Position numbers and translations under genes: made by a program. Under the pieces are notes generated by a model. It made no database searches. It worked only from the letters and a program-made list of their open reading frames with translations, and had not been told where the DNA came from. From assembly GCA_947471985.1 (NCBI GenBank), contig CANIZL010000031.1:1-58692 (forward strand): DNA of 58,692 nt, in the 5' to 3' direction. This document shows positions 12,430-58,692 of this stretch, in pieces. How positions within the stretch are numbered: the first letter of the stretch is position 1; each line of letters opens with the position of its first letter. The stretch is from Verrucomicrobiota bacterium (lineage in GTDB: Bacteria > Verrucomicrobiota > Verrucomicrobiia > Limisphaerales > UBA9464).

Positions 12430-12813
12430 ATGGCAGACATTAATAATATCGTTGAAGAGTTGAGCAAACTGACCGTGCTCGAAGCCGCTGACCTCGTGAA
12501 GAAGCTCGAGGAGAAGTGGGGCGTCACGGCGGCGGCTCCGGTTGCGGTCGCGGCGGCAGCCGTTGGCGGCGCGGCGGCTCCGGTGGAAGCGGCCAAGGAC
12601 ACGTTTGACGTGATCCTCGCGTCCCTGCCGGCCGACAAGAAGATCGGTGTCATCAAGGCGGTTCGCGAAGTCAAGGCCGGTTTGGGCCTGGCGGAAGCGA
12701 AGGCGCTGGTTGAAGGCGCTCCTAAGCCCGTGCTCGAAGGCGCGCCCAAGGCTGAAGCCGAAGCGGCCAAGAAGAAGCTCGAAGAGGCGGGTGCCAAGGT
12801 CGAGCTCAAGTAA
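12430..12813 (+). CDS. rplL: 50S ribosomal protein L7/L12
   Basis: 127 residues. This stalk protein recruits translation GTPases. The N-terminal dimerisation helices ([20 protein letters not shown]) and an Ala/Val-rich hinge (about residues 35-55) lead into the C-terminal factor-binding domain: [20 protein letters not shown], then [17 protein letters not shown]. No clear Shine-Dalgarno sequence precedes the ATG. An intrinsic terminator follows 13 bases after the stop. Confidence 0.98.
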
Positions 12814-12826
12814 TTCACTTCTCAGA

Positions 12827-12860
12827 AGCGGTTGGCGGCAATCGTCGCCAACCGCTTTTT
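12827..12860 (+). terminator. Intrinsic terminator between rplL and rpoB
   Basis: An 11-base perfect stem (AGCGGTTGGCG, 12827-12837, with CGCCAACCGCT, 12846-12856) is followed by TTTTT. In this position it would act as a partial terminator that lowers rpoBC transcription relative to ribosomal protein genes. Confidence 0.88.
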
Positions 12861-13036
12861 GGTCAATTTGACTGTTGTCAATCCGTTTTGTAACGCTAAG
12901 GTACTTGTTCGGTGACTTTTTTCAGTTCGACGAGTTCTGGCGGTTGGTGCACCAGCCGGCAGAGCTCGTCGTATTGTCTTTTCGACAAATCACGATTCCG
13001 GCATGAGCCGGTGGAATACTAGAACACGAAGTCGCA

Positions 13037-16000
13037 ATGGCAACCAAGCACTCGGAACGCATCAACTTCGGCAAGATCAAAGAGGTCATCGCCCCCCCGA
13101 ACCTCATTGAGATCCAGCTCGATTCGTATCGCGAATTCCTCCAAACGGACCTCTCGCCGTCCAAACGCAAAAACATGGGCCTTCAGGCCGTGTTTACCGA
13201 GGTCTTCCCGATTGCCAGCTACGATGGCAAAACGGTGCTGGATTTCCATAACTATGATATTCAGGACCCGAAGGTTGACTGGCTCGAGTGTTTGCGGGAA
13301 GGCATGACCTATGGGGCTCCGCTCTATGTCACCTTTCTGTTAAAAGAGGAAGCCGGTACCAAGGAGGAAAAGGTGTTCATGGGTGAGATCCCGCTCATGA
13401 CCCCGCAGGGCACGTTCGTGATCAACGGCGCGGAACGGGTGATCGTCTCGCAGTTGCACCGCTCGCCGGGTATCGCGTTCGAAAGCACCCAGCATCCCAA
13501 CGGCAAATGGCTGCACAGCTTCCGCATCATCCCGGATCGCGGTTCCTGGTACGAGGCTCAGTTTGATACTTCGGATCTGCTGTACGTCTACCTCGATCGG
13601 AAGAAACGTCGGCGCAAGTTCCTGACCACCACATTCTTCCGCGCCCTGGGCTACGGCTCCGACGCGGAGATCCTGAGCTTGTTCTATTCGATCCGCGAAT
13701 TGAACGTCAAGGAGGCGGAAAAGATGGACGAGATCCAGAATCTGGTTCTCGTCGAAGACGCTGAAGACAAGGACAAGGGCCTTGTCGTCGCTCGCGCTTT
13801 CGAGCCGCTTTCCAAAGCCGTCGTCAAACAGATTGCGGAACTCGGCACCAGCAAGATCCGGGTGGTCGATACCTCGGTGGACGATGGTATCATCATCAAG
13901 TGTCTTAAGAAGGATCCCACCAAGAACGAGGAGGAAGCCCTCAAGGATATCTATCGTCGTCTCCGGCCTGGGGATCCGCCGACGGCCGCCAACGCCCGGG
14001 CCTTGATCAAACGGCTGTTCTTCGATCCCAAGCGCTACGACCTGGGTCGCGTGGGACGCTACAAGATGAACCAGAAGCTGGGCATCGAGGACAAGGCCGA
14101 TTCCCGCATCCTTAAGCGCGAGGATCTGGTCGCGGCTACCAAGTATCTACTCAAGCTCAAGAAGGGGCAGGGGAGCCTCGATGACATTGATCATCTCGGC
14201 AGCCGCCGTATCCGGACCGTGGGCGAGTTGCTCGCCAACCAGTGCCGGGTCGGCCTGGCCCGCACGGAGCGGCTCGTCAAGGAACGCATGACGTTGTTTG
14301 ATCAGAGCCTCGACACGATGACGCCCCAGAAGCTCATCAATCCGAAGGCACTTTCTGCCGTGGTGCGCGACTTTTTCGGTCGAAGCCAGTTGAGCCAGTT
14401 CATGGATCAGATCAATCCGCTGGCGGAACTGACCCACAAGCGCCGTCTGTCCGCGCTCGGACCCGGGGGTCTCTCCCGAGACCGTGCCGGCTTTGAAGTC
14501 CGTGACGTGCATCCGTCGCACTACGGCCGTATTTGTCCGATTGAGACGCCCGAAGGTCCTAACATCGGGTTGATCGCGTCCTTGGCCACTTATGCCAAGG
14601 TTAATGATTTCGGCTTCATTGAGACGCCCTATCGGAAGGTGAAAGAAGGCCGGGTCACCGACCAGCTGGACTACCTCACCGGTGATCGGGAGGAAGGCTA
14701 CATCATCGCACAGGCTAATGCGCCCATCGATGACAAAGGCAAGTTCCTGACGGATCGTGTGCCGTGCCGTTGCAAAGGTGATTTCATCGACGTGGAGCCC
14801 GAAGGCGTCCACTACATGGACGTCTCGCCGAAGCAGCTGGTGTCGGTGGCGGCCGGTTTGATTCCGTTCTTGGAACATGACGACGCCAACCGCGCGTTGA
14901 TGGGTTCCAACATGCAACGGCAGGGTGTGCCGTTGCTGGTGACCGAGGCCCCTCTGGTGGCCACGGGTCTCGAAGAGCGTGTCGCCCGGGACTCGCGCGC
15001 GGTTATCGTCTCGGACGAGGCCGGCAAGGTGGCTTCCGTGACCGGGGATCAGATCATTGTCACGCGGGATGGGAAAATTCCGGAGACAAAGAAGAAGCTC
15101 AAACACGCTCCGGAAGACGGCGTCTGGATCTATCCGGTGCGCAAATTCATGCGCTCCAATGCCGCGACCTGCATCAACCAGAAGATTCTGGTGGCCAAGG
15201 GCGAGGTCATTAAGAAGGGACAGATCATTGCCGACGGTCCGTGTACCGATGGCGGTGAACTGGCGATCGGCCGCAATGTGCTGGTCGCGTTCATGCCGTG
15301 GAACGGTTATAACTTCGAGGATGCCATTCTGATCTCGGAAAAGATCGTCAAAGATGACATCTTTACCTCCATCCACATCGACGAGTTCGAGGTGGTGGCG
15401 CGGGACACGAAGCTGGGACCCGAGGAAATCACCCGGGATATTCCCAATCTGGGTGAAGAAGCGCTCAAAAACCTGGGTGCCGATGGCGTCATCCGCGTGG
15501 GTGCCGAGGTCAAGCCCGGCGACATTCTCGTCGGCAAGATCACGCCCAAGTCCGAGACCGAGCTGGCACCCGAAGAGCGTCTGTTGCGCGCCATTTTCGG
15601 CGAAAAAGCCGCCGATGTTAAGGATACCTCGCTCAAGGTTCCTTCAGGCACCTACGGCATCATCATGGACGTGAAGGTATCGTCCAAGATTGATGGCCAG
15701 AAGTCTCCGAAGATGCCCAAGGCACCGGAGTCCGAAGAACCGAAGGGTCCGAAGGAGGGTGACGAATCCTTCAAGGCCAAGCGTGAGGAGCTGTTGGACC
15801 AACTGACCGAAGCTCTTTCCAACATTCTGCTCGGCGAGAAGATTCCGCTCGACGTGATCAACAGCGAATCCGGTGAGATCATCTTGCCGGCCAACCGTAA
15901 GATCACCAAGACGCTGTTGAAGAAGCTCGCGACGGTGCATGACCGGGTGGAAATCGATCCGTCGCCGATTCGCAATAAGATCTTCGAAATCATCGGACAA

Positions 16001-42913: not shown

Positions 42914-43963
42914 ATGACGCCACGCACCACCCACATGAACTATATGCCCGTAGACACCGTAAAGGCCGCCCTCCGGTTCGGCCGTTACATGGGAGTCTGC
43001 CTTTTGCTCCTGGTGACACCCGGGTGTGCTCGCCCAATCCCTGCTGGGGCGGGCGGTGCCGCTGCCAAGGCCTCAGGGGAACGTCGGATTTCGTTGGAAG
43101 TCCCGGCCTTCCCGTACACCCGCCGGGTGGAAACAACCAATGGCTGGGTGGGACTGGAGGTCGCCCTGCGGAGATTCACCCCGCGAAGCGGAACCGCGCT
43201 GCCGGCCCCCAACGTCTGGTTGGTGGGCGTCACGCATTTGGGGACGTCGAATTACTACGCCCGGTTGCAGCGCTTTCTGGACGCCCAGGATCTGGTCCTC
43301 TTTGAAGGCATCGGTGCCACCAACGGACAGTTTCACGTCGCCCAGTCCGAGGGCTTCTCCCTCCAACCCGCCTTGGCCAAAGCGCTCGGACTGCGTTTTC
43401 AATTGAGCAGTGTGGACTATCAAAGGACCAATTGGGTCAACAGCGACCTCGGTCTGCGGGAGCTGCAGCGACATCTGCCCCCGGACGGTCCGAGTCCCAG
43501 TATGGATCAGGTAATGGCCGCGTTTCAGGGCGAGGGCGCCTTTGGTGTCGTGGCCCGGTGGGGCGTGGCCTTGTTGGCGGCCAGCCCCCGCTTGCAGGCG
43601 GTCTCCCGCCTGATGCTGATTGAAACCCTGTCGGGATTCGAGGGCGAGCTGCCCGATGCCGGCGCTTTCGGCATCGACACCAAGGAATTGATGCGCGTCC
43701 TCATTGGTGAGCGCAATGCGGTGGTGGTGCGGGATTTGCGCCGCGCGCTCCATCGTCGGAAACCACCCGCCAATATTGCCGTTTTCTACGGGGCCGGACA
43801 CATGCCGGACCTCGAACAGCGGCTGCGACGGGAGCTCCATCTGGTGCCGGTGGAGCACCAATGGCTTCGCGCCTTCAGTGTGAATCCCGCGCGAAGTGGC
43901 ATCAGTGCGGCCGAGGCGGAGCTGATCCGGGACTCGGTGCAGCAGGAATTAAAGAAAAAGTAA
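42914..43963 (+). CDS. TraB/GumN-like lipoprotein
   Basis: 349 residues. The N-terminal part has a lipoprotein-type signal (GVCLLLLVTPGC, Cys38). The mature domain shows the pattern of the TraB/GumN/PrgY family: WLVGVTHLGTSNYYARLQRFLDAQDLVLFEGIG, where the first His and the Glu of FEG are the presumed metal ligands. It also has ERNAVVVRDLRRALH and near the C-terminus IAVFYGAGHMPDLEQRL, with the second conserved GxxH. Members are thought to be metalloprotease-like. The start at 42914 is supported by AGGGG six bases upstream; ATGs at 42935 and 42944 are alternatives. Confidence 0.75.
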   Translation: MTPRTTHMNYMPVDTVKAALRFGRYMGVCLLLLVTPGCARPIPAGAGGAAAKASGERRISLEVPAFPYTRRVETTNGWVGLEVALRRFTPRSGTALPAPNVWLVGVTHLGTSNYYARLQRFLDAQDLVLFEGIGATNGQFHVAQSEGFSLQPALAKALGLRFQLSSVDYQRTNWVNSDLGLRELQRHLPPDGPSPSMDQVMAAFQGEGAFGVVARWGVALLAASPRLQAVSRLMLIETLSGFEGELPDAGAFGIDTKELMRVLIGERNAVVVRDLRRALHRRKPPANIAVFYGAGHMPDLEQRLRRELHLVPVEHQWLRAFSVNPARSGISAAEAELIRDSVQQELKKK

Positions 43964-44428: not shown

Positions 44429-47400
44429 ATGAGGTTGAAAAGGTTTGGGTTTGGCAACGGCCTGCTTTCGGGTCTGTTGCATCGCTTCATTGGGACGCTG
44501 GTGGTCTTGTTGTCGTTGGTCGGGATTACCGGCCAAGCGCACAACCTCGACACCCGCGCCACGTCAATCCATTTCGGCAGCGATTTCCTCCAAACAATGG
44601 CCACCCGGGCCGGTTTGGGACAGCCGCTGGTGCAGGTGGGCGACAAGTTCTGGGTCGTGATCAAGACGGTCCCGGGGCCGGGCACCGAAACCGGCGTGGG
44701 TGGTTACCAAACCTTCTACGTGCCGCCGGGCGTCAAGGTGCACAGCGCGGCGTATGTCCAGCAAGTGCCGACCAGTGTCGATCCCCGTGGGTTCGTCGAG
44801 ATTTCCATGAAGGGGCAGTCCCCCATCGCCATCGGCGACGGTCCCATCGGCGCCAAAACGGACGCCAACCTGATCGGTTTGACCCTGCCGGGAGTCAACG
44901 GCTTGGGCTTCAACAACGCCCCCGTGGATGCGGCCGGCAAACACCGGGGCACCATCGCGGGTGTTTATGCGGATACCGGCATTTTCTACTCGGACGATTC
45001 GCGCACAGCCTTTTACACCTACAAGTCACCCTCTTCGGGCATCGAACCCGGCGGAACCGAGCCGTTGCTGAAAAACAATTCCGGCGACACCGTCGGTGAA
45101 TACGACGCGGCCAACGTGGTGGCCCCCGAAATTCTGGGTGTCACCACCCTTTGGGATGCGTATCAGGAGATCGGTTATGGATCCGCGGGACTGCCCGAGA
45201 TTTCCGTTGTGGACCCCGGGGACCAACGCGGCAATGCGCCGTGGGGCTTGGCCAGCGCGGTGGCCGGTCCGCAAAGCGGTTACGCGTGGGAGTTCGACTA
45301 CGCGGCCTACAAGTCCACCGTTGGTACCAAGTTGGCCAAGGTGCAGGCGGCCGTCAAAATTGGGCCGTGGAAGCGCGTCAAATATCCCGGCAGCCAGATT
45401 TCCAAGGATCAGCCCGGCCTGATCAGTGCCGCCTTGGGATATGCAGGCGTCGATGCCTCCACCTTGGGCTTGGATTTGAATGATCCGGGTACCACTTTGG
45501 AGCGGCAATCCAATGGCACGGGTGTTAATGCTATCCGGTTCGCGATTGGCCAGCTCCAGATTAACCGGCAGGAATCCTCCGCGGTTCAGATCGAAATTGT
45601 TCAGCCGATCAGCGCAACGTGCTACCGGATTTACGGGGACGCGTTTGGTGGTGACGCGGGTGGTACCAGTAACGGCAAGGACCATATCTGGCGGTATTTT
45701 GATCCCACGGTGGTCTTCCTGGAACCGTGCGTGCAGCTCCAGAAATTGGCTTCAAAGGCGGTTGTGGCACCCGGAGAATCCTTTTCGTATCAGCTCGTTT
45801 TCGCCAATAACGGCACCGTCGCGATCCCCAATGTCGTCCTGCAGGACGTGTTGCCCTCCGGTATTTCTTACGTAAGCGCCGTGCCGGCGCCGAGCACGGT
45901 GGCGTCTCAGACCCTGACGTGGAACGTCGGAACGGTGGCCCCCAACTCCCTAGTTACCATCACGCTGAATGTCAAAGCCACCGGCGTGGGAACCCTTTGC
46001 AATACGCTGACGGTCAATAGCAATGGCAACCTGCTCTCCACCGCCGACGAGTGTACCGAGGTGGTCGTCAAACCGCTCCTCGTGAAGAAGAAAACCGTGG
46101 CGCAAACGTCGGTCGCACCAGGTGCTTTGGTCGATTATACCATCACCGTCGATAATATCGGCACCGGCTCCGCCGGTGTTCCGCTGGTCGTGACGGACTA
46201 TCTTCCGGCCGGCTTTACCTATGCCAGCCTGACCAGCGCCACGCTCAATGGGGCTTCGTACACGCCCACGGTGGGTGGCACCGCCAGTCAGCCGACCTTC
46301 ACCGTCGGTCTCGGCCTTCAAGCCGGAAAACAACTGGTCATCAATTTCAAAGCCTTGGTGGGTGCCAGCGTCGCGCCCGGTACCTATTGCAATTCCGTGG
46401 AATTGGCCCACGACGGCATCCGCGAAGGTCCGGTACCGGAAGCGTGTCTTACCGTCGGCGGCGGACAGATCGGGGATACGGTTTTCCGCGATTGGAATGG
46501 CAACGGTACCCAGGATGCGGGTGACGAAGGCCTGCCCGGCGTGACGGTCACGTTGACCAAGCCGGATCTCAGCACGGTGACCGCCGTCACGGATGCGAAC
46601 GGCAAGTACCTTTTCACCGGCCTCAATGCCGGAAACTATACGGTAGCGGTGCCTTCGCCCGGCGCGAGTGGCGTGCCCACGGGCTACACGCTGACAGCGG
46701 ATCCGGATGGGGCTCCGCTAAACCTGTCCTATGCCAAGACGCTCGCCTTGAATGAGCAGTTCCTGGGCGCCGACTGGGGCTACCAACCCGGTGGTACGGG
46801 GGTGATCGGGGACCAGGTCTTCAACGACCTCAATGGTGACGGCATTTTCAATGGATTCGATGCCGGCATCAACAATGTCACGTTGAATCTCTATGAGGAC
46901 ACCAATGGCAATGGCGCCATCGATGCCGGGGATCAGCTGATCAAGACCACCACCACTAGCGGCGGCCTCTATTCCTTCACGGGCCTGGCAACCGGCTTGA
47001 ACTACATAGTCGATGCTGACGAGGGCGATGCCGACCTGACCAGCTTCTTCAGTCCCAACGCGTTCGTTACCACCACGCCCGCCCTGCGCTCGGTGCTCAA
47101 TCTCGTAGGCACGGTCAATACGGCCGATTTCGGCTATCGGGCCAACCTTCCGAGCAGCATTGGCGACACGGTGTTCAAGGACCTCAATAGCAACAATGTC
47201 TATGACTCCGGCGTCGATGAAGTGCTGCCCAACGTCACGGTCACGCTGTATCGGGACTCGAATGCGGACGGAACGGCCGATGGGCCTGCCTTGGCCACCC
47301 GGAGTTCCGACACCTCCGGACAATACCTCTTCACCGGCCTCGCTCCGGATACCTACTTGGTGACGGTGGACACTGCCGATCCCGAACTGCCGTCCGGACT

Positions 47401-50400
47401 GCTGGTGTCGATTGGGCGGTATATTGTGCCTTTGCCGTCCAATACCTCCATCCTGACGGCGGATTTCCCGTTCCGTCCGGTTTTGAGCAAGACCGGTCCC
47501 GCCACGGCGATTCCGGGCAACAACATCAGTTACGCCCTGAACGTTAATTACGACGGCAATCTGGCCCTGCAGAATGCCAAGGTCTGCGACGAGCCGCCCA
47601 CGGGTACCACGTTTGTGAGCGCCGACAACGGCGGCGTCCCGAACACCAATGTTGCGGCGGATCTGACGACGGCAGATTACACGCTGAACACGGGTACGGT
47701 CGACTGGGCCAACGGTTGGGCCGAGACCGGTGATGATGCGAATGCGGCGACGGGAAATATCTTCATCGACGAAGCCAACACGCGGTTGAGCTTCAAAACC
47801 AAGAATGATACGATCATGGAGCTCAAGCGGCGGGTCGATCTTTCTGGGGGGGTGACCTACGCCAAGTTGACCGTGGTCGTCGACAGCAACGGACTCGACA
47901 ACGCCACAACCACCAAAGTTGAAGTCGAGGCGAACAATGGCGGAGGTTGGGTTTCCTTGGGAACGTTTAAGCTCAATACCCCCACGGTCGCGTCCCTCCC
48001 GGCAACCTTCACGTATGATCTAGTCCAGGCACTGGGGACCGTGACGGCGACCACGGACATTCGCCTTCGCAACAACAGCACCACGGCCAACAAAATCATC
48101 ACCTTTACCGACTTCCGGGTGGATTACGTAAAGCCGGCTACTGCGGTTTGCTGGGATTTGGGGAGTGTTGTGGCCGGAAGTCCGTCCAGTGCAACGGAGG
48201 GCGGCACGACGACCATCCTGGGTGACGTGGATGCCGAAGTTACCGATGATGCCATGGTGGACCAGGATAATGCGACCTCCAAATTCGGAGCCGGCAATGA
48301 TCTCAAAGTCAAAGCGGATGCCAAAAAGGCCAAGCAAAGCTTGGTTCGGTGGAATCTTTCGACGGTTTCTGGGACTGTTCAATCCGTCGAAATGAAGTTC
48401 TTCCAATTGGGCAAGAATACCGGGACCGCCGCGATTCAAAAGAACACCAGCACTTGGGCGCAGGGCACCGTTACGTGGAACACTCGCCCGGGCACCACGG
48501 GGATCTCCGTGGGTACCGTTACCGGTAATACAACCAAGAACCACTATGATACCAACTCGGCGGTGGGAACGTCGATGGTCGCCATGGTTCAAGATTGGGT
48601 CACGACCTCGGGCAATAATTTCGGTATCACCTTGGTGGGTGCCTCGGGGGGTGAATTGGATTTTGCGTCAGTGGAAAAGGGCTCGGGAAATCCGATCCTG
48701 ACCGTCGTGACCGGAGGTACGGGCAATTACCGCAACGCCCTCGCCGTCTCTCCCACGGTGGCCAATGTGGGCGATACGATCACCATCACGATGTCGCTGA
48801 CCAATACGACGGCTGCTGCAGTCACATCCGTGGCCGGACCCGCGAACTTGGTGGTCAATAATCTCGGAGGTGCCGGTGCCAGCGCTACGAAACAGACCGG
48901 ACCGTCGCCTGCGGGAACCGTGACGGTCGCCGCCGGTGGTTCGCAGGTCTTCACCTACACGTATCAGGTCACTGGACCCCTGACCGCTCCGGACCAGTTG
49001 ACGTTTACCGGGACCCCCACGTCCACGGGCAGTAAGTTTATCGCCGCCACCTCCGGCGGCACCCTGATCGCCCCCGCCCTGGGCATGACGGTCAAGGTTA
49101 ACAACCCGAACTCGTTGAACGTGCTCGACAACACCGGAACGTTGGTCAGCGACGAAATCACCGTGCCCAGCAATCCAGTGCAGACGGCCTTGTCCGGGAG
49201 CATCGGGGACACGGTCTACGCCGACGTAGATGGCAGTGGCACGCAGAACGGCTCCGAAGTGGGTATTCCCAACGTCCGGGTCTTCATTGATCAGAATGCC
49301 AACGGAACGTTCGACGTGGGTGAACCCAATGATGTGACGGATGCGTTGGGTAAATACCGCATCTTTGGTCTCACTGCCGCCACCTATACGGTCATCGTCG
49401 ATACGACGACCACGCCCGCCGGCTACGTGCCGACGACGGCGACCAGTCTCTCTCGCACCTTGCCCTTGGCGAGTTCGCAGATTGACGATGCGGATTACGG
49501 TCTGCGCCCGCCGGCGCCCACGCCTTCCTCGATCGGCGATACCGTGTGGATCGACACCAATGAAAATGGCGTCGTGGATCCCGGTGAAGTGGGTATTGCC
49601 AATGTCGATGTCCGGCTGTACCGCGACACTAACAATAACAACGTCATCGACGGTGGTGACCAACTTCTCCTCACCACCAGTACCGATGCGAACGGCAATT
49701 ACGTTTTCAACGGTCTTTATATCGACAATTATATCGTCGATGTGGTCGAGACGGATCCTCAATTCCCCGGCGGCCTGGGGTTGGTGACCGGCGGCAATCC
49801 CACCATCACCTCGCCCCCGGCAAATGGGGTCCATGCGGTGGATATCACGTCCAACGGTTCGACCGTGACGATTGCGGACTTCGGATACAACTACACCGGT
49901 GTCATTGGTGACTTCGTTTGGTACGATACGAACGCCAACGGACTCCAGGACGAGACCGGATGTTCCGGCGCCCCGTGCCCGGTGCCCAATGCGACGGTTG
50001 TATTGGTTTCGGACACCAACGGCAATGGTTCGGCCGAGCCTGGTGAACCCGCTATTGCGACCTATACGACGTGCGACGGCACCGCCGAGTATCCCTGCAG
50101 CGGTGGTGCGCTCCCGGGCCAGTATCAGTTCAGCAAGCTGCCTCCGGGGAACTATGTGGTACAGGTCTCCGAACAGGAAATCCCGCTGCCCGGGCATGGC
50201 GTCACTGGCAAGATGATTCTCACCACCGGCGGTGACCGCGCGGTCGTCCTATCGCCGGGCTCCATGTCGGTGCTCACGGCCGACTTCGGTCTGGCCGCGG
50301 GCGCTCTCCTGGAAGGACATGTCTTCCATGATGTGAATCACAGCAGTTTGCTGGATGGTGGGGACATCCTTCTGCCCAATGTGACGGTCAATCTCTACTC

Positions 50401-53400
50401 GGCGACCGGCAACACGATCCTTCAGACCACGACCACCGATGCCGCGGGTGAATACCGTTTCATTGTGGCGGCCGGCGATTATCGCATTGAGTACGTCACC
50501 AACGATACGGACATCCCGCTCCCCATCCGGGCGCCCAGCGGCGAATCCACCACGCCACTGACCTATACCATGACCGCTGTGGCCGGTCAGGAGTACGGAG
50601 GATTTGATTTCGGACGCGACAATTCCGGCAGCATTGGCGATACGATCTACGCCGACCTCAATGGCGATCACTCGCAGACCGGTGGTGAACCCGGACTCCC
50701 CTCGGTGACGGTGGAACTATACAGTGATCTGAATAACAACAACACGGTGGACGGTTTGGATGCCCTGCTGGACACCCAAATCACCGACGCCTCCGGTCAC
50801 TACCTTTTTGTGGGGCTGGCGGACGGTAATTACGTCGTGAACGTCAACACGACGACGGTGCCGAGTGGCTATAATCTGTCGCCGACCGGGGTGCCTACGA
50901 CCGAATCCACCGCGGGCAGCAGCACGGCGGGCGCGACGGTCTCGGGCGGCGGCGCGACGCTGGACCGGGACTTCGGGTATCAACCCACGGCACCTACCTT
51001 TAGCGTCAGCGGCAACGTCTGGCATGACAACGGACAGGGCGGGGGCATTGCCGGCGACGGTTTCAAAAATGGCGGTGAAACGAATCTGCCCACGGTCAAG
51101 GTCACCCTCTCGGTGGACGCTGACGGCGCTGGCGGGAATCCTCCGATTCTCTACACGGTGTTCACGGATGCGAGCGGGAATTATCTGCTCAATGGCGTTC
51201 CTGGAACGGCGTTGGTGGTGATTACGGTCGATCCGACCACGCTGCCCAATGCCTCCTTTGTGCAGACCGGTGATCCGGATGCCCTTAAGGACAACCAGAA
51301 TACGTTTACGATGGCGAGTGCCAACGTGACGGGTAAGAACTTCGGCTATCGCTCGGTGCTGGCCAGTATCGCCGGAACGGTGGTCCGGAATGCCAATGGC
51401 AATGGTTTGGCTGAGCTGGGTGAGATTCCGGTGAGCGGCATTGCAGTCACCCTGCGGTATGCCGGGTTGGACGGCATCCTCAATACCGGGGATGATACCA
51501 CGACACCGGCCACGACTGATGGCTCCGGCGATTACTCGTTCACGGGATTGATCCCCGGCTTCTACGAAATCACCAAGGTGAATCCGACGGGCTATTACAG
51601 CCTGGCCGATCGCGATGGTGGAAATCCCGATAGCATCACCCTGACCATTGGTCCCGGTAATGGTGCGACCGGTGTGGGCGACAACAAGGTCGACCAGGAC
51701 TTTGAGCTGAGCATGGGACAGATCTCCGGCACGGTGTACAAGGACACGAACAACGACGACGTGGGCGACGTGGGCTTGGCGGGTGTGACGGTAACGCTGT
51801 ACACGGATCCGAACGGGGACGGGGACCCGACGGATGGTGCTGTCTATGGAGTGCCGACGACGACGGCCTTGAATGGCACATACAGTTTCAACGCGATTCC
51901 GGCGGGCACGTACGTGGTGGTGGAGACTGATCCGAGCGGTTACCTAAGCGTGGCGGACACGGACTCGACGACGGACAGTCCGTTGTTGCCGGCGGATGCG
52001 ACCAACGGCAGCGGCACGGACAACCGGATCCCGGTGAATCTGGCGGCGGGTGAGACGGATTCCGGCAATGACTTCGTGGATGAGCAATTGGGCACGATCT
52101 CGGGCACAGTGAAGCAGGACAACAACAACGACGACCTGGGCGACGCCGCGTTGGTGGGCGTGACGGTGACGTTGTATACCGACCCGAATGGGGACGGGAA
52201 CCCGGCGGACGGTGTCGTCTACGGCGTGCCGACGACGACGGATGGGACCGGCGCGTACAGCTTCAGCGGCGTGGTGCCGGGAACGTACGTGGTGGTGGAG
52301 ACGGATCCGGTTGGCTACCAGAGCGTGACGGATGGCGACTCGACGGTGGACAGCCCGTTGAACCCGGTGGATGCGACCAACGGCAGTGGCACGGACAACC
52401 GGATTCCGGTGAACTTGGCGGCGGGTGAGACCGATTCCGGGAATGACTTCGTGGACGAACAGTACGGCGCGATTTCGGGCCATGTTTTCAAAGACACGGA
52501 TAACAACAACACCGGGGACGCGCCGTTTGCGGGCGTGACGCTGACACTGCTGAACAGTGACGGCACGGTGTACGACAATAGTCCGGCCCCGGGCATCCAG
52601 TCCCTGACCCAGATCACGGATGGGACGGGGAGCTATACGTTCAACAACGTGCCGCCCGGCAGCTACCGGGTGAGCGAGACGCAGCCGGTGGGTTACGCGT
52701 CGGTGAGCGATCACGACGGCGGGAATCTGGACGTGATCGGCGACGTGAGCTTGATCGTGGTGACGGCGGGTAACACGAATGCGAACAACGACTTCGTGGA
52801 GGAACAGACGGGCATTATCTCGGGCACGGTGTATGCCGACACGAACAACGATAATGGTGGCGACGTGGGCCTGGATGGCGTGACGGTGGAACTGTTCGCC
52901 GACACGGACAACGACGGCGCCCCGAATGGAGCGGCGTTGCAAACGACGACCACGGCGGGCGGCGGTCTGTACAGCTTCAGCGGCGTGGTGCCGGGAGCGT
53001 ACGTGGTGGTGGAGACAGATCCGGTTGGCTACCAGAGCGTAGCCGACGGGGACTCGACGGTAGACAGTCCGTTGAACCCGGCGGACTTGGCCAACAATAG
53101 TGGCACGGACAACCGGATCCCGGTGAACCTGGCCACGGGTGAGACGGACTCTGGGAATGACTTTGTCGACGAACAACTCGGCTCGATTTCGGGCAAGGTC
53201 TGGGCGGACACCGACAACGACAACGTGGGCAATGTCGGCCTGGATGGCGTGACGGTGAAATTGTTTGCCGACACCGACAACAATGGGATTCCGGACGGAG
53301 CAGCATTGCAGACGACGACCACGGCCGGTGGCGGTTTGTACAGCTTCACGGGCGTGGCTCCAGGCAATTACGTGGTGGTGGAGACCGATCCGAGTGGCTA

Positions 53401-56400
53401 CCAGAGCGTGGCGGATGGGGACGCGACGACTCCGGGCGATGACCTGACCAACACGAGCCAGACAGACAACCAGATCCCGGTGGGTATCACCGCGGGCGAA
53501 TCGGACACCGGCAATGATTTCGTGGACGAGCAGACGGGCACGATCTCGGGCACGGTCTACAAGGACACGAACAATGACAATGCCGGAGACTTGGGTCTGG
53601 ATGGCGTAACGGTGGAACTGTTCGCCGATTCGGACAACAACGGCATTCCGGACGGAGCGGTGTTGCAGACGACGACTACCGCGGGTGGCGGTCTGTACAG
53701 TTTTACGGGCGTGGCTCCGGGCAATTACGTGGTGGTGGAGACCGATCTGAGTGGTTACCAGAGCGTGGCGGATGGGGACTCGACGACTCCGGGCGATGAC
53801 CTAACCAACACGAGCCAGACGGACAACCAGATCCCGGTGGGTATCACCGCGGGTGAATCGGATACCGGCAATGACTTCGTGGATGAGCAATTGTCGGGCA
53901 TCAGCGGGTTTGTCCTCGCCGATACCAACAATGACGACACGGGTGACGTGGGCATTCCCGGTGTGACGCTGACGTTGCTCAACGGCGATGGATCGGTGTA
54001 CGACAGCGACCCGGCGGTCGGGATTCAGGCGCTGACGGCGACCACTGATGGGGCCGGTTCGTATAGCTTCTCGGGCATTCCGCCGGGCAGCTACCGGGTG
54101 AGTGAAACGCAACCCGCGGGCTATTCGTCGGTCAGCGACAAGGACGGCGGGAACCTGGATGAAGTCGGCGACGTGACGGTGATCGTTCTCGTGGCGGGCG
54201 TCCCCAATAGCGGAAACAACTTCGTGGAGGAGCTCAACAGCTCGATCTCCGGCACGGTGTACAAGGACACGAATAACGACGACGCGGGTGATGTCGGCCT
54301 GGATGGCGTGACGGTGGAACTGTTCGCGGATACGGATGGCAATGGCACTCCGGACGGAGCGGCCTTGCGGACGACGACCACCGCCGGTGGCGGTCTGTAC
54401 AGCTTCAATGCGGTCCCGCCGGGAACATACGTGGTGGTGGAGACGGACCTGAGTGGGTACCAGAGCGTGGCGGATACAGATTCGACGGTGGACAGCCCGT
54501 TGAACCCGGCGGACGCGACCAATAGCAGTGGCACGGACAACCGGATTCCGGTGAACCTGGCGACGGGTGAAACGGACTCGGGCAATGACTTCGTGGATGA
54601 ACAGCTGGGCGCGATCACGGGCCATGTGTTCAAGGACACGGATAACAACAATAGCGGCGACGCGCCGCTGGTGGGTGTGACGCTGACGCTGTTGAACAGT
54701 GACGGCACGGTGTATGACGGGGACCCGGGTGCGGGCGGCGTGCAAACGGTGACGGCGACGACGGACGGAACGGGGAGCTACAGTTTCCTGAACCTGCCTC
54801 CAGGGAGCTACCGGGTGAGTGAGACGCAGCCGGTGGGCTACGCGTCGGTGAGCGATCACGACGGTGGGAACCTGGACGTGATCGGGGATGTGACCTTGAT
54901 CGTGGTGACGGCGGGTGACACGAATGCGAACAACGACTTCGTGGAAGAACAGACCGGTTCGATCTCGGGCACGGTGTACGCGGACACGGACAACAACAAC
55001 AGCGGAGACACGGCGTTGCCGGGTGTGACGCTGACGTTGTTGAACAGCGATGGCACGGCGTATGATGGGTCCCCCAACACTCCGGGATTGCAATCGGTGA
55101 CGACGACGACGGATGGATCGGGGAACTACACGTTCAGCAACCTGCCGCCGGGAAGCTATCGGGTGGGCGAGACGCAGCCGAGTGGCTACACGTCGGTGAG
55201 TGACAAGGACGGTGGCAACCTCGACCAGATTGGGGACATCACCTTGATTGCGGTAACAGCGGGCGCTGAGAACACGGGGAATAACTTCGTGGAGAAGCAG
55301 CTGGGCGGGATCTCGGGATTCGTGCTGGCGGACCTGAACAACGACGACGTGGGCGAGGCGGGTATCCCCGGTGTGACGCTGACGTTGCTCAACGGCGATG
55401 GCACGGTGTACGACAGCGATCCGGCGATTGGCGTCCAACCCTTGACCACGACGACCGATGGCACCGGGGCTTACAGCTTCACGGGCATTCCGCCGGGCAG
55501 CTACCGGGTGAGTGAGACGCAGCCCGCGGGCTACACCTCGGTGAGTGACACCGATGGCGGTAATCTGGATGTCATCGGCGACGTGTCGCCGGTGGTGCTG
55601 GCGGCCGGGGCCACGAGCAGCGGCAACAACTTCGTCGAAGAACAACCGGCTTCGATTGGCGACTACGTGTGGCTGGATGAGAACAGCAACGGGGTGCAGG
55701 ACGCGGGCGAGGCCGGGATCGGCAATGTCCGGGTGGAACTGTACGCCGCGAATGGCACGACGCTGCTGGCGACGACCTTTACCGATTCGAATGGGGGCTA
55801 CCTCTTCGTGAACGTGGCTCCAGGCAGCTATGTGGTGAAGGTGGCGACGGCGGGCACAGGCGCCCTGGCAACGGGCCTCGCAGCCAACCCGACGTATGAC
55901 TTCGACGGCATCGGCTCCGCACATACGGCGGCCGTGACGGTGTCAGCCGGCCAGGAGTTTGTGGCGGCGGACTTCGGCTACAACTGGTCGACCTCAACGG
56001 AGGTGGGCAACAACACGGGTACGGGCGCCATCGGCGACCGGCTCTGGGTGGATACCAACGGCAACGGCGTGCAGGATCCGGGTGAACCTGGGTTGGGCGG
56101 CATACCGGTGACCCTGTACTGGGACTCCGATGGCGATGGCGTGATCGACGCCGTGAAGGCGACGACGACCACGTCGGTGGACGGTGGGTACATCTTCGAC
56201 GGTCTCCCGGCCGGCATCTACACGGTGGCCGTCAACGGTGGCACCACCCCCGCAGGCTACACGCAGACGGGCGACCCGGATGCGACCGTGGACAACAAGA
56301 CCACGGCCCCCGTGGTGCTGGCGCCGGGCGACGTGTACGTCAACGCGGACTTCGGCTACCAGCCGACGGGCAACTACGCCAGCATCGGTGATTGGGTGTA

Positions 56401-58366
56401 CTTCGACGCCAATGCGAATAGCATTCAGGACGGCAGCGATTATGGCATCGCCGGCGTGACGGTGGCCTTGATCCGGGACGTCAATGGCAACGGGGTGTTT
56501 GATGCCGGGGACGGGATCATCGCCACGACGACCACGGACGCCAGTGGCGCCTACCTCTTCACGGGGGTGTCGACGACCGACGGCGTGGGCACGGACGACT
56601 ACCTGGTGTGGGTCAACGATACGGCCCACGTGCTGGGCGGCTTGACGCCGACGGTGGATGCGGACACCACCAACCCGACGACGGGCTTCGTCACGGGCTA
56701 CGGCATCAGTAAGGTGGCCAATCTGGCGGGCACGGTCCTGACGCAGGACTTTGGGTACACGGCGGCGGGCCAGACCCCGACGACGGGCCTGATCGGCGAC
56801 ACGATCTATCTGGATCAAAACGGCAATGGCCAGCAGGGTCCGGGCGAAAGTGGTCTGGAAGGCGTAACGGTGGAACTGTACGACGCGGCGGGCACGGTGC
56901 TGCTGGCGACGACGCTGACCGACGAGAACGGCCACTACTACTTCCCGGGCCTGAGCGCCGGTACGTACACGGTGAAGGTGTTAACGGTGAGCCTGCCCGG
57001 TAATGGTACGGGTCTGGTGAACACGGATGACCCGGGCGTGGCGGGCAACCCGGACACGGGCAACAGCCAGTCGACGGTGGTGCTGAGTGCCGGGGAAATC
57101 AATCTGGCGCAGGACTTCGGATACCATGCGACGGTGCCGAACACGATTGCCGGCACGGTCTGGAATGATCCGAACGCGGACGGCCTGCTGACGGAGCCGG
57201 GCGTCTACGGCGGTGTGACCGTGGTGTTGAAGGACGGGAACGGGAACATCGTGGCCACGACGGTCACGGATGGCTCGGGCAATTACGTCTTCACCGGTTT
57301 GCCGGATGGAACGTACACGGTGGACGTGACGGATGTGGCCAACGTGTTGAATGGCCTGTGGCACTCGCTGGGTACAGCGGGCTTGGATAACCACAGCCAG
57401 ACCGACGTGTACACGGTGGCCGTCAGCGGCGGCAACACGTACCCGGCGGACTTCGGATACTACGGGGCGCCGTCCGTGCTGAGCGACTTTGTCTGGAATG
57501 ACAACGGCGTGGGTGGCGGAACGGCGGCCAACGGTATCCAGGACGGTACGGAGCCCGGCATCCCGGGTGTCCAGGTGCGCCTGCTTATCACCTGGCCCGA
57601 TACAACGCAGACGCTCATTCAGACGACGACCGATGCGAGCGGGCTCTACCGCTTCGGGAACCTGCTGCTGGACGAGAATCTGACGGGTACGACGTACCGG
57701 ATCAGTGTTCCGATCCTGCCCGGGACGGCGAGCCCGACGGGTAACGGTACTCCGGAGACTGACTCAGGTGATCCGGCGGGAACGCTAGCGACGGTGCTGA
57801 AGGGCGCGACGAATCCGACGTATGACTTCGGGTTCTCCGGGCTGCCGCCGACGGCGATCCGGTTGGCGTACCTGCAAGGGTGGTCACTGAACGGCCGGGT
57901 GACGGTGGAATGGGAGACCGTGACCGAGCTGGATACGGCCGGGTTCGATCTGTACCGGTTGGGTGCCAACGGAACCTGGGTGCGGGTGAATCGGGACCTG
58001 ATCCCGGCCCTGAACCTGGAAGGAGGCGGAGTGTACCGACTACAGGACGAGGACCTGCCGATACCGTCCACGCAGAGCTACCAATTGGTGGAACTGGAGA
58101 CGACCGGAAAAGTGAACACGTATGGACCGTTTGAAGTGCGGGTCCAGGCGGCAGCCACCGGGCAGGGTGTGCGGGTGGTGAAGGGGGCCGTGGAAGTCCG
58201 CTTCCTCGGCACACCGGACGCCGAGTACGAGATCGAAGTCACCGACGACCTGCAAGCGGGACGCTGGCAGGTGGTGGGACGGGCCCGCGCGGATGCGGCG
58301 GGCGGGATGGGTTATCAGGAAACCGGGAGTGGCCCGATGCGCTTCTATCGTGCGCTGCAACGCTGA
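44429..58366 (+). CDS. Giant exported SdrD_B/DUF11 repeat protein
   Basis: 4,645 residues. A signal peptide (basic MRLKRFGFGNG, then FIGTLVVLLSLVGITGQAHN) leads into a unique N-terminal region to about residue 435 (GGYQTFYVPPGVKVHSAAYV, DHIWRYFDPTVVF). Two DUF11-like domains (about residues 437-675) follow, then three SdrD_B domains (IGDTVFRDWNGNGTQDAGD type, from residue 682). Next come a linker, a DNRLRE-like domain (about 1261-1430, LVRWNLSTVSG, FGITLVGASGG), a further DUF11-like part and seven SdrD_B domains. A tandem 11-repeat array (2432-3741) and six more SdrD_B domains follow. The C-terminal tail (LNGRVTVEWETVTELDTAGF) has no LPXTG or PEP-CTERM anchor. SdrD_B domains bind Ca through D-N-N-D loops. 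It is probably secreted or surface-located; adhesion is inference. AAGG lies just before the ATG. Confidence 0.93.
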   Translation: MRLKRFGFGNGLLSGLLHRFIGTLVVLLSLVGITGQAHNLDTRATSIHFGSDFLQTMATRAGLGQPLVQVGDKFWVVIKTVPGPGTETGVGGYQTFYVPPGVKVHSAAYVQQVPTSVDPRGFVEISMKGQSPIAIGDGPIGAKTDANLIGLTLPGVNGLGFNNAPVDAAGKHRGTIAGVYADTGIFYSDDSRTAFYTYKSPSSGIEPGGTEPLLKNNSGDTVGEYDAANVVAPEILGVTTLWDAYQEIGYGSAGLPEISVVDPGDQRGNAPWGLASAVAGPQSGYAWEFDYAAYKSTVGTKLAKVQAAVKIGPWKRVKYPGSQISKDQPGLISAALGYAGVDASTLGLDLNDPGTTLERQSNGTGVNAIRFAIGQLQINRQESSAVQIEIVQPISATCYRIYGDAFGGDAGGTSNGKDHIWRYFDPTVVFLEPCVQLQKLASKAVVAPGESFSYQLVFANNGTVAIPNVVLQDVLPSGISYVSAVPAPSTVASQTLTWNVGTVAPNSLVTITLNVKATGVGTLCNTLTVNSNGNLLSTADECTEVVVKPLLVKKKTVAQTSVAPGALVDYTITVDNIGTGSAGVPLVVTDYLPAGFTYASLTSATLNGASYTPTVGGTASQPTFTVGLGLQAGKQLVINFKALVGASVAPGTYCNSVELAHDGIREGPVPEACLTVGGGQIGDTVFRDWNGNGTQDAGDEGLPGVTVTLTKPDLSTVTAVTDANGKYLFTGLNAGNYTVAVPSPGASGVPTGYTLTADPDGAPLNLSYAKTLALNEQFLGADWGYQPGGTGVIGDQVFNDLNGDGIFNGFDAGINNVTLNLYEDTNGNGAIDAGDQLIKTTTTSGGLYSFTGLATGLNYIVDADEGDADLTSFFSPNAFVTTTPALRSVLNLVGTVNTADFGYRANLPSSIGDTVFKDLNSNNVYDSGVDEVLPNVTVTLYRDSNADGTADGPALATRSSDTSGQYLFTGLAPDTYLVTVDTADPELPSGLLVSIGRYIVPLPSNTSILTADFPFRPVLSKTGPATAIPGNNISYALNVNYDGNLALQNAKVCDEPPTGTTFVSADNGGVPNTNVAADLTTADYTLNTGTVDWANGWAETGDDANAATGNIFIDEANTRLSFKTKNDTIMELKRRVDLSGGVTYAKLTVVVDSNGLDNATTTKVEVEANNGGGWVSLGTFKLNTPTVASLPATFTYDLVQALGTVTATTDIRLRNNSTTANKIITFTDFRVDYVKPATAVCWDLGSVVAGSPSSATEGGTTTILGDVDAEVTDDAMVDQDNATSKFGAGNDLKVKADAKKAKQSLVRWNLSTVSGTVQSVEMKFFQLGKNTGTAAIQKNTSTWAQGTVTWNTRPGTTGISVGTVTGNTTKNHYDTNSAVGTSMVAMVQDWVTTSGNNFGITLVGASGGELDFASVEKGSGNPILTVVTGGTGNYRNALAVSPTVANVGDTITITMSLTNTTAAAVTSVAGPANLVVNNLGGAGASATKQTGPSPAGTVTVAAGGSQVFTYTYQVTGPLTAPDQLTFTGTPTSTGSKFIAATSGGTLIAPALGMTVKVNNPNSLNVLDNTGTLVSDEITVPSNPVQTALSGSIGDTVYADVDGSGTQNGSEVGIPNVRVFIDQNANGTFDVGEPNDVTDALGKYRIFGLTAATYTVIVDTTTTPAGYVPTTATSLSRTLPLASSQIDDADYGLRPPAPTPSSIGDTVWIDTNENGVVDPGEVGIANVDVRLYRDTNNNNVIDGGDQLLLTTSTDANGNYVFNGLYIDNYIVDVVETDPQFPGGLGLVTGGNPTITSPPANGVHAVDITSNGSTVTIADFGYNYTGVIGDFVWYDTNANGLQDETGCSGAPCPVPNATVVLVSDTNGNGSAEPGEPAIATYTTCDGTAEYPCSGGALPGQYQFSKLPPGNYVVQVSEQEIPLPGHGVTGKMILTTGGDRAVVLSPGSMSVLTADFGLAAGALLEGHVFHDVNHSSLLDGGDILLPNVTVNLYSATGNTILQTTTTDAAGEYRFIVAAGDYRIEYVTNDTDIPLPIRAPSGESTTPLTYTMTAVAGQEYGGFDFGRDNSGSIGDTIYADLNGDHSQTGGEPGLPSVTVELYSDLNNNNTVDGLDALLDTQITDASGHYLFVGLADGNYVVNVNTTTVPSGYNLSPTGVPTTESTAGSSTAGATVSGGGATLDRDFGYQPTAPTFSVSGNVWHDNGQGGGIAGDGFKNGGETNLPTVKVTLSVDADGAGGNPPILYTVFTDASGNYLLNGVPGTALVVITVDPTTLPNASFVQTGDPDALKDNQNTFTMASANVTGKNFGYRSVLASIAGTVVRNANGNGLAELGEIPVSGIAVTLRYAGLDGILNTGDDTTTPATTDGSGDYSFTGLIPGFYEITKVNPTGYYSLADRDGGNPDSITLTIGPGNGATGVGDNKVDQDFELSMGQISGTVYKDTNNDDVGDVGLAGVTVTLYTDPNGDGDPTDGAVYGVPTTTALNGTYSFNAIPAGTYVVVETDPSGYLSVADTDSTTDSPLLPADATNGSGTDNRIPVNLAAGETDSGNDFVDEQLGTISGTVKQDNNNDDLGDAALVGVTVTLYTDPNGDGNPADGVVYGVPTTTDGTGAYSFSGVVPGTYVVVETDPVGYQSVTDGDSTVDSPLNPVDATNGSGTDNRIPVNLAAGETDSGNDFVDEQYGAISGHVFKDTDNNNTGDAPFAGVTLTLLNSDGTVYDNSPAPGIQSLTQITDGTGSYTFNNVPPGSYRVSETQPVGYASVSDHDGGNLDVIGDVSLIVVTAGNTNANNDFVEEQTGIISGTVYADTNNDNGGDVGLDGVTVELFADTDNDGAPNGAALQTTTTAGGGLYSFSGVVPGAYVVVETDPVGYQSVADGDSTVDSPLNPADLANNSGTDNRIPVNLATGETDSGNDFVDEQLGSISGKVWADTDNDNVGNVGLDGVTVKLFADTDNNGIPDGAALQTTTTAGGGLYSFTGVAPGNYVVVETDPSGYQSVADGDATTPGDDLTNTSQTDNQIPVGITAGESDTGNDFVDEQTGTISGTVYKDTNNDNAGDLGLDGVTVELFADSDNNGIPDGAVLQTTTTAGGGLYSFTGVAPGNYVVVETDLSGYQSVADGDSTTPGDDLTNTSQTDNQIPVGITAGESDTGNDFVDEQLSGISGFVLADTNNDDTGDVGIPGVTLTLLNGDGSVYDSDPAVGIQALTATTDGAGSYSFSGIPPGSYRVSETQPAGYSSVSDKDGGNLDEVGDVTVIVLVAGVPNSGNNFVEELNSSISGTVYKDTNNDDAGDVGLDGVTVELFADTDGNGTPDGAALRTTTTAGGGLYSFNAVPPGTYVVVETDLSGYQSVADTDSTVDSPLNPADATNSSGTDNRIPVNLATGETDSGNDFVDEQLGAITGHVFKDTDNNNSGDAPLVGVTLTLLNSDGTVYDGDPGAGGVQTVTATTDGTGSYSFLNLPPGSYRVSETQPVGYASVSDHDGGNLDVIGDVTLIVVTAGDTNANNDFVEEQTGSISGTVYADTDNNNSGDTALPGVTLTLLNSDGTAYDGSPNTPGLQSVTTTTDGSGNYTFSNLPPGSYRVGETQPSGYTSVSDKDGGNLDQIGDITLIAVTAGAENTGNNFVEKQLGGISGFVLADLNNDDVGEAGIPGVTLTLLNGDGTVYDSDPAIGVQPLTTTTDGTGAYSFTGIPPGSYRVSETQPAGYTSVSDTDGGNLDVIGDVSPVVLAAGATSSGNNFVEEQPASIGDYVWLDENSNGVQDAGEAGIGNVRVELYAANGTTLLATTFTDSNGGYLFVNVAPGSYVVKVATAGTGALATGLAANPTYDFDGIGSAHTAAVTVSAGQEFVAADFGYNWSTSTEVGNNTGTGAIGDRLWVDTNGNGVQDPGEPGLGGIPVTLYWDSDGDGVIDAVKATTTTSVDGGYIFDGLPAGIYTVAVNGGTTPAGYTQTGDPDATVDNKTTAPVVLAPGDVYVNADFGYQPTGNYASIGDWVYFDANANSIQDGSDYGIAGVTVALIRDVNGNGVFDAGDGIIATTTTDASGAYLFTGVSTTDGVGTDDYLVWVNDTAHVLGGLTPTVDADTTNPTTGFVTGYGISKVANLAGTVLTQDFGYTAAGQTPTTGLIGDTIYLDQNGNGQQGPGESGLEGVTVELYDAAGTVLLATTLTDENGHYYFPGLSAGTYTVKVLTVSLPGNGTGLVNTDDPGVAGNPDTGNSQSTVVLSAGEINLAQDFGYHATVPNTIAGTVWNDPNADGLLTEPGVYGGVTVVLKDGNGNIVATTVTDGSGNYVFTGLPDGTYTVDVTDVANVLNGLWHSLGTAGLDNHSQTDVYTVAVSGGNTYPADFGYYGAPSVLSDFVWNDNGVGGGTAANGIQDGTEPGIPGVQVRLLITWPDTTQTLIQTTTDASGLYRFGNLLLDENLTGTTYRISVPILPGTASPTGNGTPETDSGDPAGTLATVLKGATNPTYDFGFSGLPPTAIRLAYLQGWSLNGRVTVEWETVTELDTAGFDLYRLGANGTWVRVNRDLIPALNLEGGGVYRLQDEDLPIPSTQSYQLVELETTGKVNTYGPFEVRVQAAATGQGVRVVKGAVEVRFLGTPDAEYEIEVTDDLQAGRWQVVGRARADAAGGMGYQETGSGPMRFYRALQR
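51722..55654 (+). repeat. Eleven-unit tandem coding repeat in the giant gene
   Basis: Units begin (at the Ile of ISG/ITG) at 51722, 52097, 52472, 52817, 53186, 53543, 53900, 54245, 54614, 54962 and 55310. Unit sizes are 375, 375, 345, 369, 357, 357, 345, 369, 348, 348 and 345 bases. Two protein types alternate irregularly. Type A carries YVVVETD..GYQSV and type B carries YRVSETQP.GY.SVSD.DGGNLD; the order is A A B A A A B A B B B. Long stretches are almost identical in DNA, notably the second halves of units 5 and 6 (about 53340-53530 and 53700-53890), which shows recent duplication or gene conversion. Confidence 0.95.
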
Positions 58367-58400: not shown

Positions 58401-58692
58401 ATGAAGACTTCGAAGAACAACGGTAAGCAGATGGGGTACGTGCTGGCTCTCGGGCTGGTGACGATGGCGGGTGTGCGGGCGGCGGATCCGGTGACGCCGT
58501 CGACGGTGGTGCAGAACTTCACGTACACGACGGCCTTTGAGGCGTCGCCGTTGGCGGCGTTGCCGACAATTGATAAGACGTGGAACATCCAGAGTTACGC
58601 CGGGCTGCCGCAGGAGTTGGTGGCGGTGAAGCTGGAGATCACGACGCAGGTGCGGTACCTGGGGACGCTGATATCGCTGGTGGAAAGCAAGG
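58401..58692 (+). CDS. Exported protein, choice-of-anchor E-like (3' end outside window)
   Basis: The ATG at 58401 lies 34 bases after the giant gene, with AGGA (58388-58391) at a good distance. The 97 visible codons give a signal peptide (MKTSKNNGKQMGYVLALGLVTMAGVRAAD) and then FEASPLAALPTIDKTWNIQS, LVAVKLEITTQVRYLGTLIS. This start, with a two-word aromatic/Pro phrase and a strand LxxVxLxITTxV, resembles the choice-of-anchor E domain seen in surface proteins. It is probably made with the giant protein. Its codon choice (many GTG, ACG, GCG) matches the repeat array rather than the 5' half of the giant gene. Confidence 0.65.
   Translation, partial: MKTSKNNGKQMGYVLALGLVTMAGVRAADPVTPSTVVQNFTYTTAFEASPLAALPTIDKTWNIQSYAGLPQELVAVKLEITTQVRYLGTLISLVESK

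Follow-up and report, generated by a model that had tools for sequence, protein, structure and literature searches.

In the window, the whole 58,692-nucleotide stretch that was analyzed, we found a giant gene whose product, judging from its sequence, is probably a fiber-like, Sec-exported stalk protein that sits at the cell surface or in the extracellular matrix. The protein closes in a C-terminal domain, which we call the RFYR tail, that also ends at least 83 other open reading frames (ORFs) of the same genome. The gene (44429-58366, + strand) is a single ORF of 4,645 codons with an ATG start and without an internal stop; at the base composition of the window, the chance of that many stop-free codons is about 5e-64. 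Its GC3 is 0.772, compared with 0.772 for rpoC and 0.756 for rpoB on the same contig, and the protein has a calculated mass of ~475 kDa and a pI of ~4.05. The original prediction of about 27 SdrD_B domains around a DNRLRE-like domain in 4,645 residues agrees with the 27 SdrD_B stretches and the CBM96 domain that Pfam gives, and with the presence of a signal peptide. Its description of a long secreted repeat protein with a possible surface role is likewise supported. The parts of the gene are listed in Table 1.

Table 1. Features of the giant gene and the gene that follows it, in window coordinates.
Feature	Coordinates	Strand	Size or basis
Giant secreted protein	44429..58366	+	4,645 aa
Sec signal peptide, residues 1-37	44429..44539	+	Sequence; rule and by eye
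Conserved N-terminal head domain, residues 38-439	44540..45745	+	Comparison with relatives
Best of three DUF11 stretches, residues 436-532	45734..46024	+	Pfam
TIGR04226-like stretch (isopeptide-forming fimbrial domain), residues 552-657	46082..46399	+	22.7 bits, below cut-off of 30
First three SdrD_B domains	46466..47377	+	Six-frame search
CBM96 / DNRLRE-like domain, residues 1270-1427	48236..48709	+	Pfam CBM96, E 1.1e-16
23 further SdrD_B domains in array	49199..57835	+	Six-frame search
FN3-like domain (TELDTAGFDLYR)	57848..58138	+	AlphaFold2 model, pLDDT about 48-80
C-terminal RFYR tail domain	58148..58363	+	At least 90 matches in own genome
Downstream partner gene, 5' part with signal peptide	58401..58692	+	Cut by contig end

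The signal peptide is apparently cleaved after ITGQA, so that the mature protein starts HNLDTR, and it is the only strongly hydrophobic stretch of the chain. The six-frame search found 26 SdrD_B domains in the giant, three before and 23 after the DNRLRE-like domain, and Pfam places three DUF11 stretches. The CBM96 score is 61.5 bits (Pfam cut-off 26), and the NCBIfam DNRLRE model matches the corresponding region of the relatives. The SdrD_B domains give a long, acidic chain and include 14 loops with the calcium-binding motif D-x-[DN]-x-[DN]-G-x-x-[DE]. Between 51708 and 55656 of the window there are internal DNA repeats, in which the SdrD_B repeats are 72-85% identical to one another, and collapse of similar repeats in the draft assembly may have influenced the copy number. 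Contig C31, which the window covers in full, belongs to an assembly of 6.38 Mb in 180 contigs that is 96% complete. The upstream gene (42914-43963, +) has a lipobox-like signal, judged by eye, and a weak TraB/GumN match below cut-off (E 0.0017). Two other proteins encoded on the contig (2484-5720 and 38374-41148, both on the - strand) have DUF7133 and cytochrome c-type matches.

Structure prediction in segments, which had been proposed as a check, yielded the FN3-like domain and the beta domain of the tail, but the model of the N-terminal head is of low confidence (mean pLDDT 64.8, pTM 0.76). The AlphaFold2 model of the FN3-like domain aligns with the FN3 domains of NCAM over 88 residues at 2.5 A (Z 8.1). 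Modeled behind the FN3-like domain, the RFYR tail forms a compact all-beta domain with pLDDT of about 85-96 from residue ~105 on. The top structural row, 9g4n_C (a GH157 chain), covers the FN3-like domain plus the tail, with Z 8.8 and an rmsd of 6.7 over 145 residues.

The N-terminal region had been called unique, and this did not hold: it is a conserved domain of ~400 residues with 14 named records in the species collection, yet a rare one, as only this genome and one other have it among 387 sampled from the phylum. The labels of those records include Verrucomicrobia, Kiritimatiellae, Lentisphaerae, Planctomycetaceae, and Hydrogenedentota, among others. In a set of 58 relatives including this genome, three have the head, with 71% identity in genome G006 and 51% in genome G011. 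Residues 38-439 have no match in Pfam at E<=1, in NCBIfam at E<=0.1, or among PDB sequences at E<=1, and the G011 head is likewise without Pfam and NCBIfam matches at those thresholds. Foldseek on the head model gave a best E of 0.23. When this weak model (pLDDT 64.8) was re-aligned, sortase-type pilins came first, with a top Z of 7.1 over 142 residues at 3.9 A.

Average column identity in 15 aligned heads is 61%. The mature protein starts HNL after A or G, and the His falls right after the apparent cleavage site in 15/15. Copper enzymes with a histidine brace (LPMO-like) have a His as their mature N-terminus. We rejected a metal-binding, LPMO-like head because no second His is invariant among the aligned heads, and the idea remains a lead only; the KDH His is replaced by Asn in loci L060 and L062 and lies outside the sequence in view for L058, and in the head model pLDDT is <50 for residues 1-4.

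The combination of head, DUF11, SdrD_B, DNRLRE/CBM96, and a variable end is also found in G006, G011, and the loci L052 and L053, and L057 has the head, DUF11, and SdrD_B with no DNRLRE/CBM96 match. By its coordinates the G006 giant is 5,475 codons, over two loci, with 29 SdrD_B stretches within its first 4,679 residues and another 5 among the last 795. The RFYR tail ends the giants of the window, G006, and (by eye) L053; a different module closes those of L052, L054, and L057, and the G011 giant ends in a C25 peptidase domain. In G011 the head is a separate overlapping ORF in a different frame, and L054 is also split; the split frames were kept separate in the analysis.

With the MSCRAMM Sdr proteins of Staphylococcus (SdrC/SdrD), the giant shares tandem SdrD_B domains, and the G011 protein can be aligned to an SdrD chain of known structure (E 7.1e-27). 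Members of the SdrD family have an SD repeat and an LPXTG anchor. In contrast, the giant has a different head, no SD run of three or more, and no LPXTG anchor; the only occurrences of LPx[TS][GA] are LPGTA at 4430 and LPPTA at 4472, and neither is followed by a hydrophobic segment. Against the SdrD model NF012181 it scores 620.9 bits (cut-off 2500), with the best stretch in the B repeats, so the giant does not clearly correspond to any well-studied adhesin whose anchoring is known. Like the giant, the proteins P0011 and P0012 on contig C76 of the same genome look exported and have SdrD_B arrays, but they have a choice-of-anchor E head and no RFYR tail (by eye). On that contig, the SdrD_B proteins at L012:5437-10317 (-) and L012:15344-19126 (+), of 1,626 and 1,260 aa, lie ~5 kb apart and are 43% identical to each other over the choice-of-anchor E head.

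Secreted adhesins of the RTX (type I) kind carry nonapeptide repeats, GGxGx[DN], and this pattern is absent from the giant. Sorting by PEP-CTERM and exosortase is treated in Haft et al. 2006 (PMC1569441). The giant has no VP[EDA][PAS] in its last 60 residues and no hydrophobic window besides the signal peptide, and no match to TIGR02595 (PEP-CTERM) is listed on contig C31 at E<=10. Its tail, unlike PEP-CTERM, is a predicted beta domain of ~70 residues with no PEP motif and no hydrophobic helix. The claim that the protein has no anchor signal stands as far as LPXTG, PEP-CTERM, and RTX signatures are concerned, but has to be qualified by the C-terminal domain that it shares with so many ORFs.

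We found no match to the last 172 residues of the giant in Pfam or NCBIfam. Within its own genome, they gave ten weak further matches, with E from 0.0025 to 0.64; the last ~65 residues account for nine of these, and the remaining one runs from residue 77 onward. Nine of the ten lie at the very end of an ORF, and the tenth (contig C115) is absent from the later set of 90. That set came from a tail profile built from 11 ends, nine of this genome and two of G006, which gave at least 90 matches in this genome at E<=0.01, the best 150 of 286 candidates having been scored. The stop codon is in view for 87 of the 90 matches listed, and the match ends within 8 residues of the stop in 79 and within 28 residues in 84, compared with ~5 expected near the stop by uniform placement. 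When the nine own-genome seeds are left out, 75 of 81 matches are C-terminal. Six matches lie away from the end (three are at least 125 residues short of the stop, and three have at least 354 residues of open frame after them), which indicates that the domain can sit inside a protein.

Sixty-five tail-bearing ORFs are complete at both ends, and 62 of these have the tail C-terminally. A crude, home-made signal-peptide rule is positive for 41 of the 62 (the giant included) versus 21 of 188 control ORFs, a contrast that is overstated because the controls are six-frame ORFs, most of which are not genes. On the 13 listed ORFs of the window, the rule gave four positives, one of them, EF-Tu, in error; several carriers that by eye appear to be exported were missed. 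Leaving the giant aside, there are 61 complete ORFs with a C-terminal tail, and 57 of them were scanned against Pfam at E<=1e-5, with four omitted for size. These 57 proteins match 59 Pfam models, some of them overlapping (e.g. three Ig models), with at most six members each; the commonest are Ig, RCC1, lamin-tail, TSP3, Calx-beta, and CotH. There is also a second giant ORF, L153 on contig C112, with ~3,915 codons in view, an open 5' end, and an RFYR-type tail (E 0.002).

For the 11 tails themselves, NCBIfam gave no match at E<=1, and the best Pfam result was a weak F5/8-type match in one member (E 0.0036). Coatomer subunits were the top PDB sequence matches of the tail (E 0.0052) and were taken as chance. 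In the last 45 residues, the top 16-residue hydropathy mean is 1.51 for 84 tails and 1.74 and 1.45 for the PEP-CTERM-like partners described below, so that hydropathy alone is a poor separator of the tail from PEP-CTERM-like ends.

Across the phylum, the tail was found at E<=0.001 in at least 56 of 145 genomes, and 89 had no match among the candidates scored. The best 40 candidates per genome were scored, which for this genome gives 39 matches, not 90; with partial scoring here and in the search of this genome, all of the tail counts are lower bounds. Nine tail loci from other genomes all end alike, eight of them with the stop in view.

Based on these results, a common beta-sandwich cap or generic ligand-binding domain with no sorting role, which would make the giant a soluble or matrix exoprotein, has in our judgment nearly an even chance of being what the tail is. 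A compact all-beta fold, the F5/8-type match in one tail of 11, and the six non-terminal matches of the 90 listed are what would be expected of such a domain. The concentration of matches at the stop, the diversity of the carriers, and the like endings in other genomes argue against it. Given that the tail closes more than 80 other ORFs, many of them exported-looking, we consider it a candidate sorting or anchoring signal, one that has no name so far.

Four exosortase matches are present in this genome, as are PEP-CTERM matches that pass the cut-off. Exosortase was found in 103 of the 145 genomes: among the matches listed, in 52 of 56 tail-positive versus 51 of 89 tail-negative genomes (Fisher p 1.7e-6, with kinship and genome size ignored and the 145 genomes assumed to be the same draw). 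Exosortase was missing from four tail-positive genomes: G082 and G153, with zero listed, and G103 and G189, which are counted as negative because they are absent from the complete list of 103 positives. Exosortase co-occurs with the tail, yet the tail is without an exosortase signature, and we rejected it as the machinery of the tail. A C25 peptidase was rejected in the same role for this genome, as none was found there; with these two considered, we found no handling machinery for the RFYR tail.

The pairing of the giant with a second exported gene, as originally predicted, is supported by the sequence: a downstream ORF with a signal peptide starts 34 bases past the stop of the giant and runs for 97 codons up to the contig end. 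Since the window is the whole of contig C31, the proposed look downstream was made in relatives instead. The window partner is 33% identical to the G006 partner over 49 residues (E 1e-7) and has no match to the G011 partner (E 0.15) or to P0011. The ends of the G006 and G011 partners match (E 7e-5); the G006 end reads VPEAGT...HRFQRAKD, and the G011 end reads VPEAST...HHRRRAAKKK. The G011 partner is over the choice-of-anchor E cut-off (28.4 vs 23.8 bits), and the G006 partner is without any model match, its PEP-CTERM-like end being judged by eye. In L052, the next ORF (12756-14126, +) has a PEP-CTERM segment, with 20.9 bits against a cut-off of 16 in NCBIfam and 19.4 against 20.7 in Pfam. This segment lies mid-ORF, with a second similar exported-type unit after it, in what is apparently a fused tandem. 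Seven loci have the 3' end of the giant in view. A PEP-CTERM-like partner is present in three of them (G006, G011, and L052), the window and L054 show only the start of a partner before they are cut, and L053 and L057 have no PEP-CTERM-like partner by the pattern used.

In G006, the downstream look also brought up a C25/PorU-type peptidase as the third gene (NF033707 E 7.1e-35, Pfam C25 E 9.4e-45), and in G011 a peptidase of this type is fused to the giant (NF033707 E 5e-46, Pfam C25 E 1.7e-63). Their scores against the PorU model, 119.9 bits (G006) and 156.9 bits (G011), are far under the cut-off of 420. The G006 peptidase itself ends in an RFYR-like tail, and it aligns with the solved PorU 6za2 (E 8.4e-7), including the GHG and Cys segments. 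PorU/C25-like genes occur in 5 of the 20 genomes searched, namely G006, G011, and three further members of the same family, G005 (L065), G001 (L067), and G008 (L068). The same search gave no C25 or PorU-like match in this 96%-complete assembly, nor did another search, in which no control was positive either; this argues against the giant being the carrier of a protease display unit with its C25-type peptidase gene beyond the contig end here. That arrangement is suggested by the single chain in G011, the neighboring gene in G006, and the segments that align with PorU; no downstream ORF of L053 or L057 was flagged in the pattern listing, however, and we think it improbable for the window.

The C-terminal sorting domain of type IX secretion (T9SS) is a terminal beta domain similar in size to the RFYR tail, and the PorU-like genes of the relatives add to the likeness. 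The T9SS model TIGR04183 matches none of the 11 tails and nothing in the last 172 residues of the giant; in the window giant it stays below the cut-off, with its best stretch inside an SdrD_B domain, and in the G006 giant it is over the cut-off (25.3 vs 23 bits), but at residues 3498-3540 within the SdrD_B array. A search for SprA was negative in all 58 relatives, this genome among them, but no control genome was positive either. Despite the PorU-type gene downstream in G006 and fused in G011, the FN3-like domain, and the terminal beta domain, it is thus very hard to believe that the giant is T9SS cargo, given the TIGR04183 and SprA results and the lack of a C25/PorU-like match in this genome.

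The giant is best read as a stalk of the Sdr/Cna-B kind, adhesive or part of a matrix, with its domains in a new combination. The chain would cross the inner membrane by Sec, calcium would stiffen the SdrD_B rod, and the head together with the CBM96 domain would hold cells, polysaccharide, or matrix. The tail would keep the giant at the envelope or mark it for passage through the outer membrane, and the downstream gene would be a PEP-CTERM-type partner handled by exosortase. We are least sure of the anchoring steps in this stalk reading. That the RFYR tail is a true sorting or anchoring signal is a tentative suggestion that we ourselves consider less likely than not, and we are just as hesitant about the broader possibility that a so far undescribed route of export or surface anchoring in Verrucomicrobiota recognizes it as its signal. 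Such a route would work alongside exosortase and serve more than 80 proteins of this genome, ranging from short enzymes to the 4,645-residue stalk.

To our knowledge, how very large proteins are transported across two membranes and held outside the cell has not been settled for this phylum. Going by titles and the beginnings of abstracts in the open literature, we found no paper describing the giant or the RFYR tail, none on SdrD with Verrucomicrobi, and none on C25 with PEP-CTERM, and the available parts of PMC1569441 and PMC12057145 describe neither the giant nor the tail. The giant by itself is one more Sdr-type stalk. In copy number, position, diversity of carriers, and patchy distribution, the RFYR tail resembles PEP-CTERM at its first recognition, as far as the available part of PMC1569441 covers it. 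The tail also offers a direct handle, as a tag of ~70 residues that can be added to or removed from a reporter.
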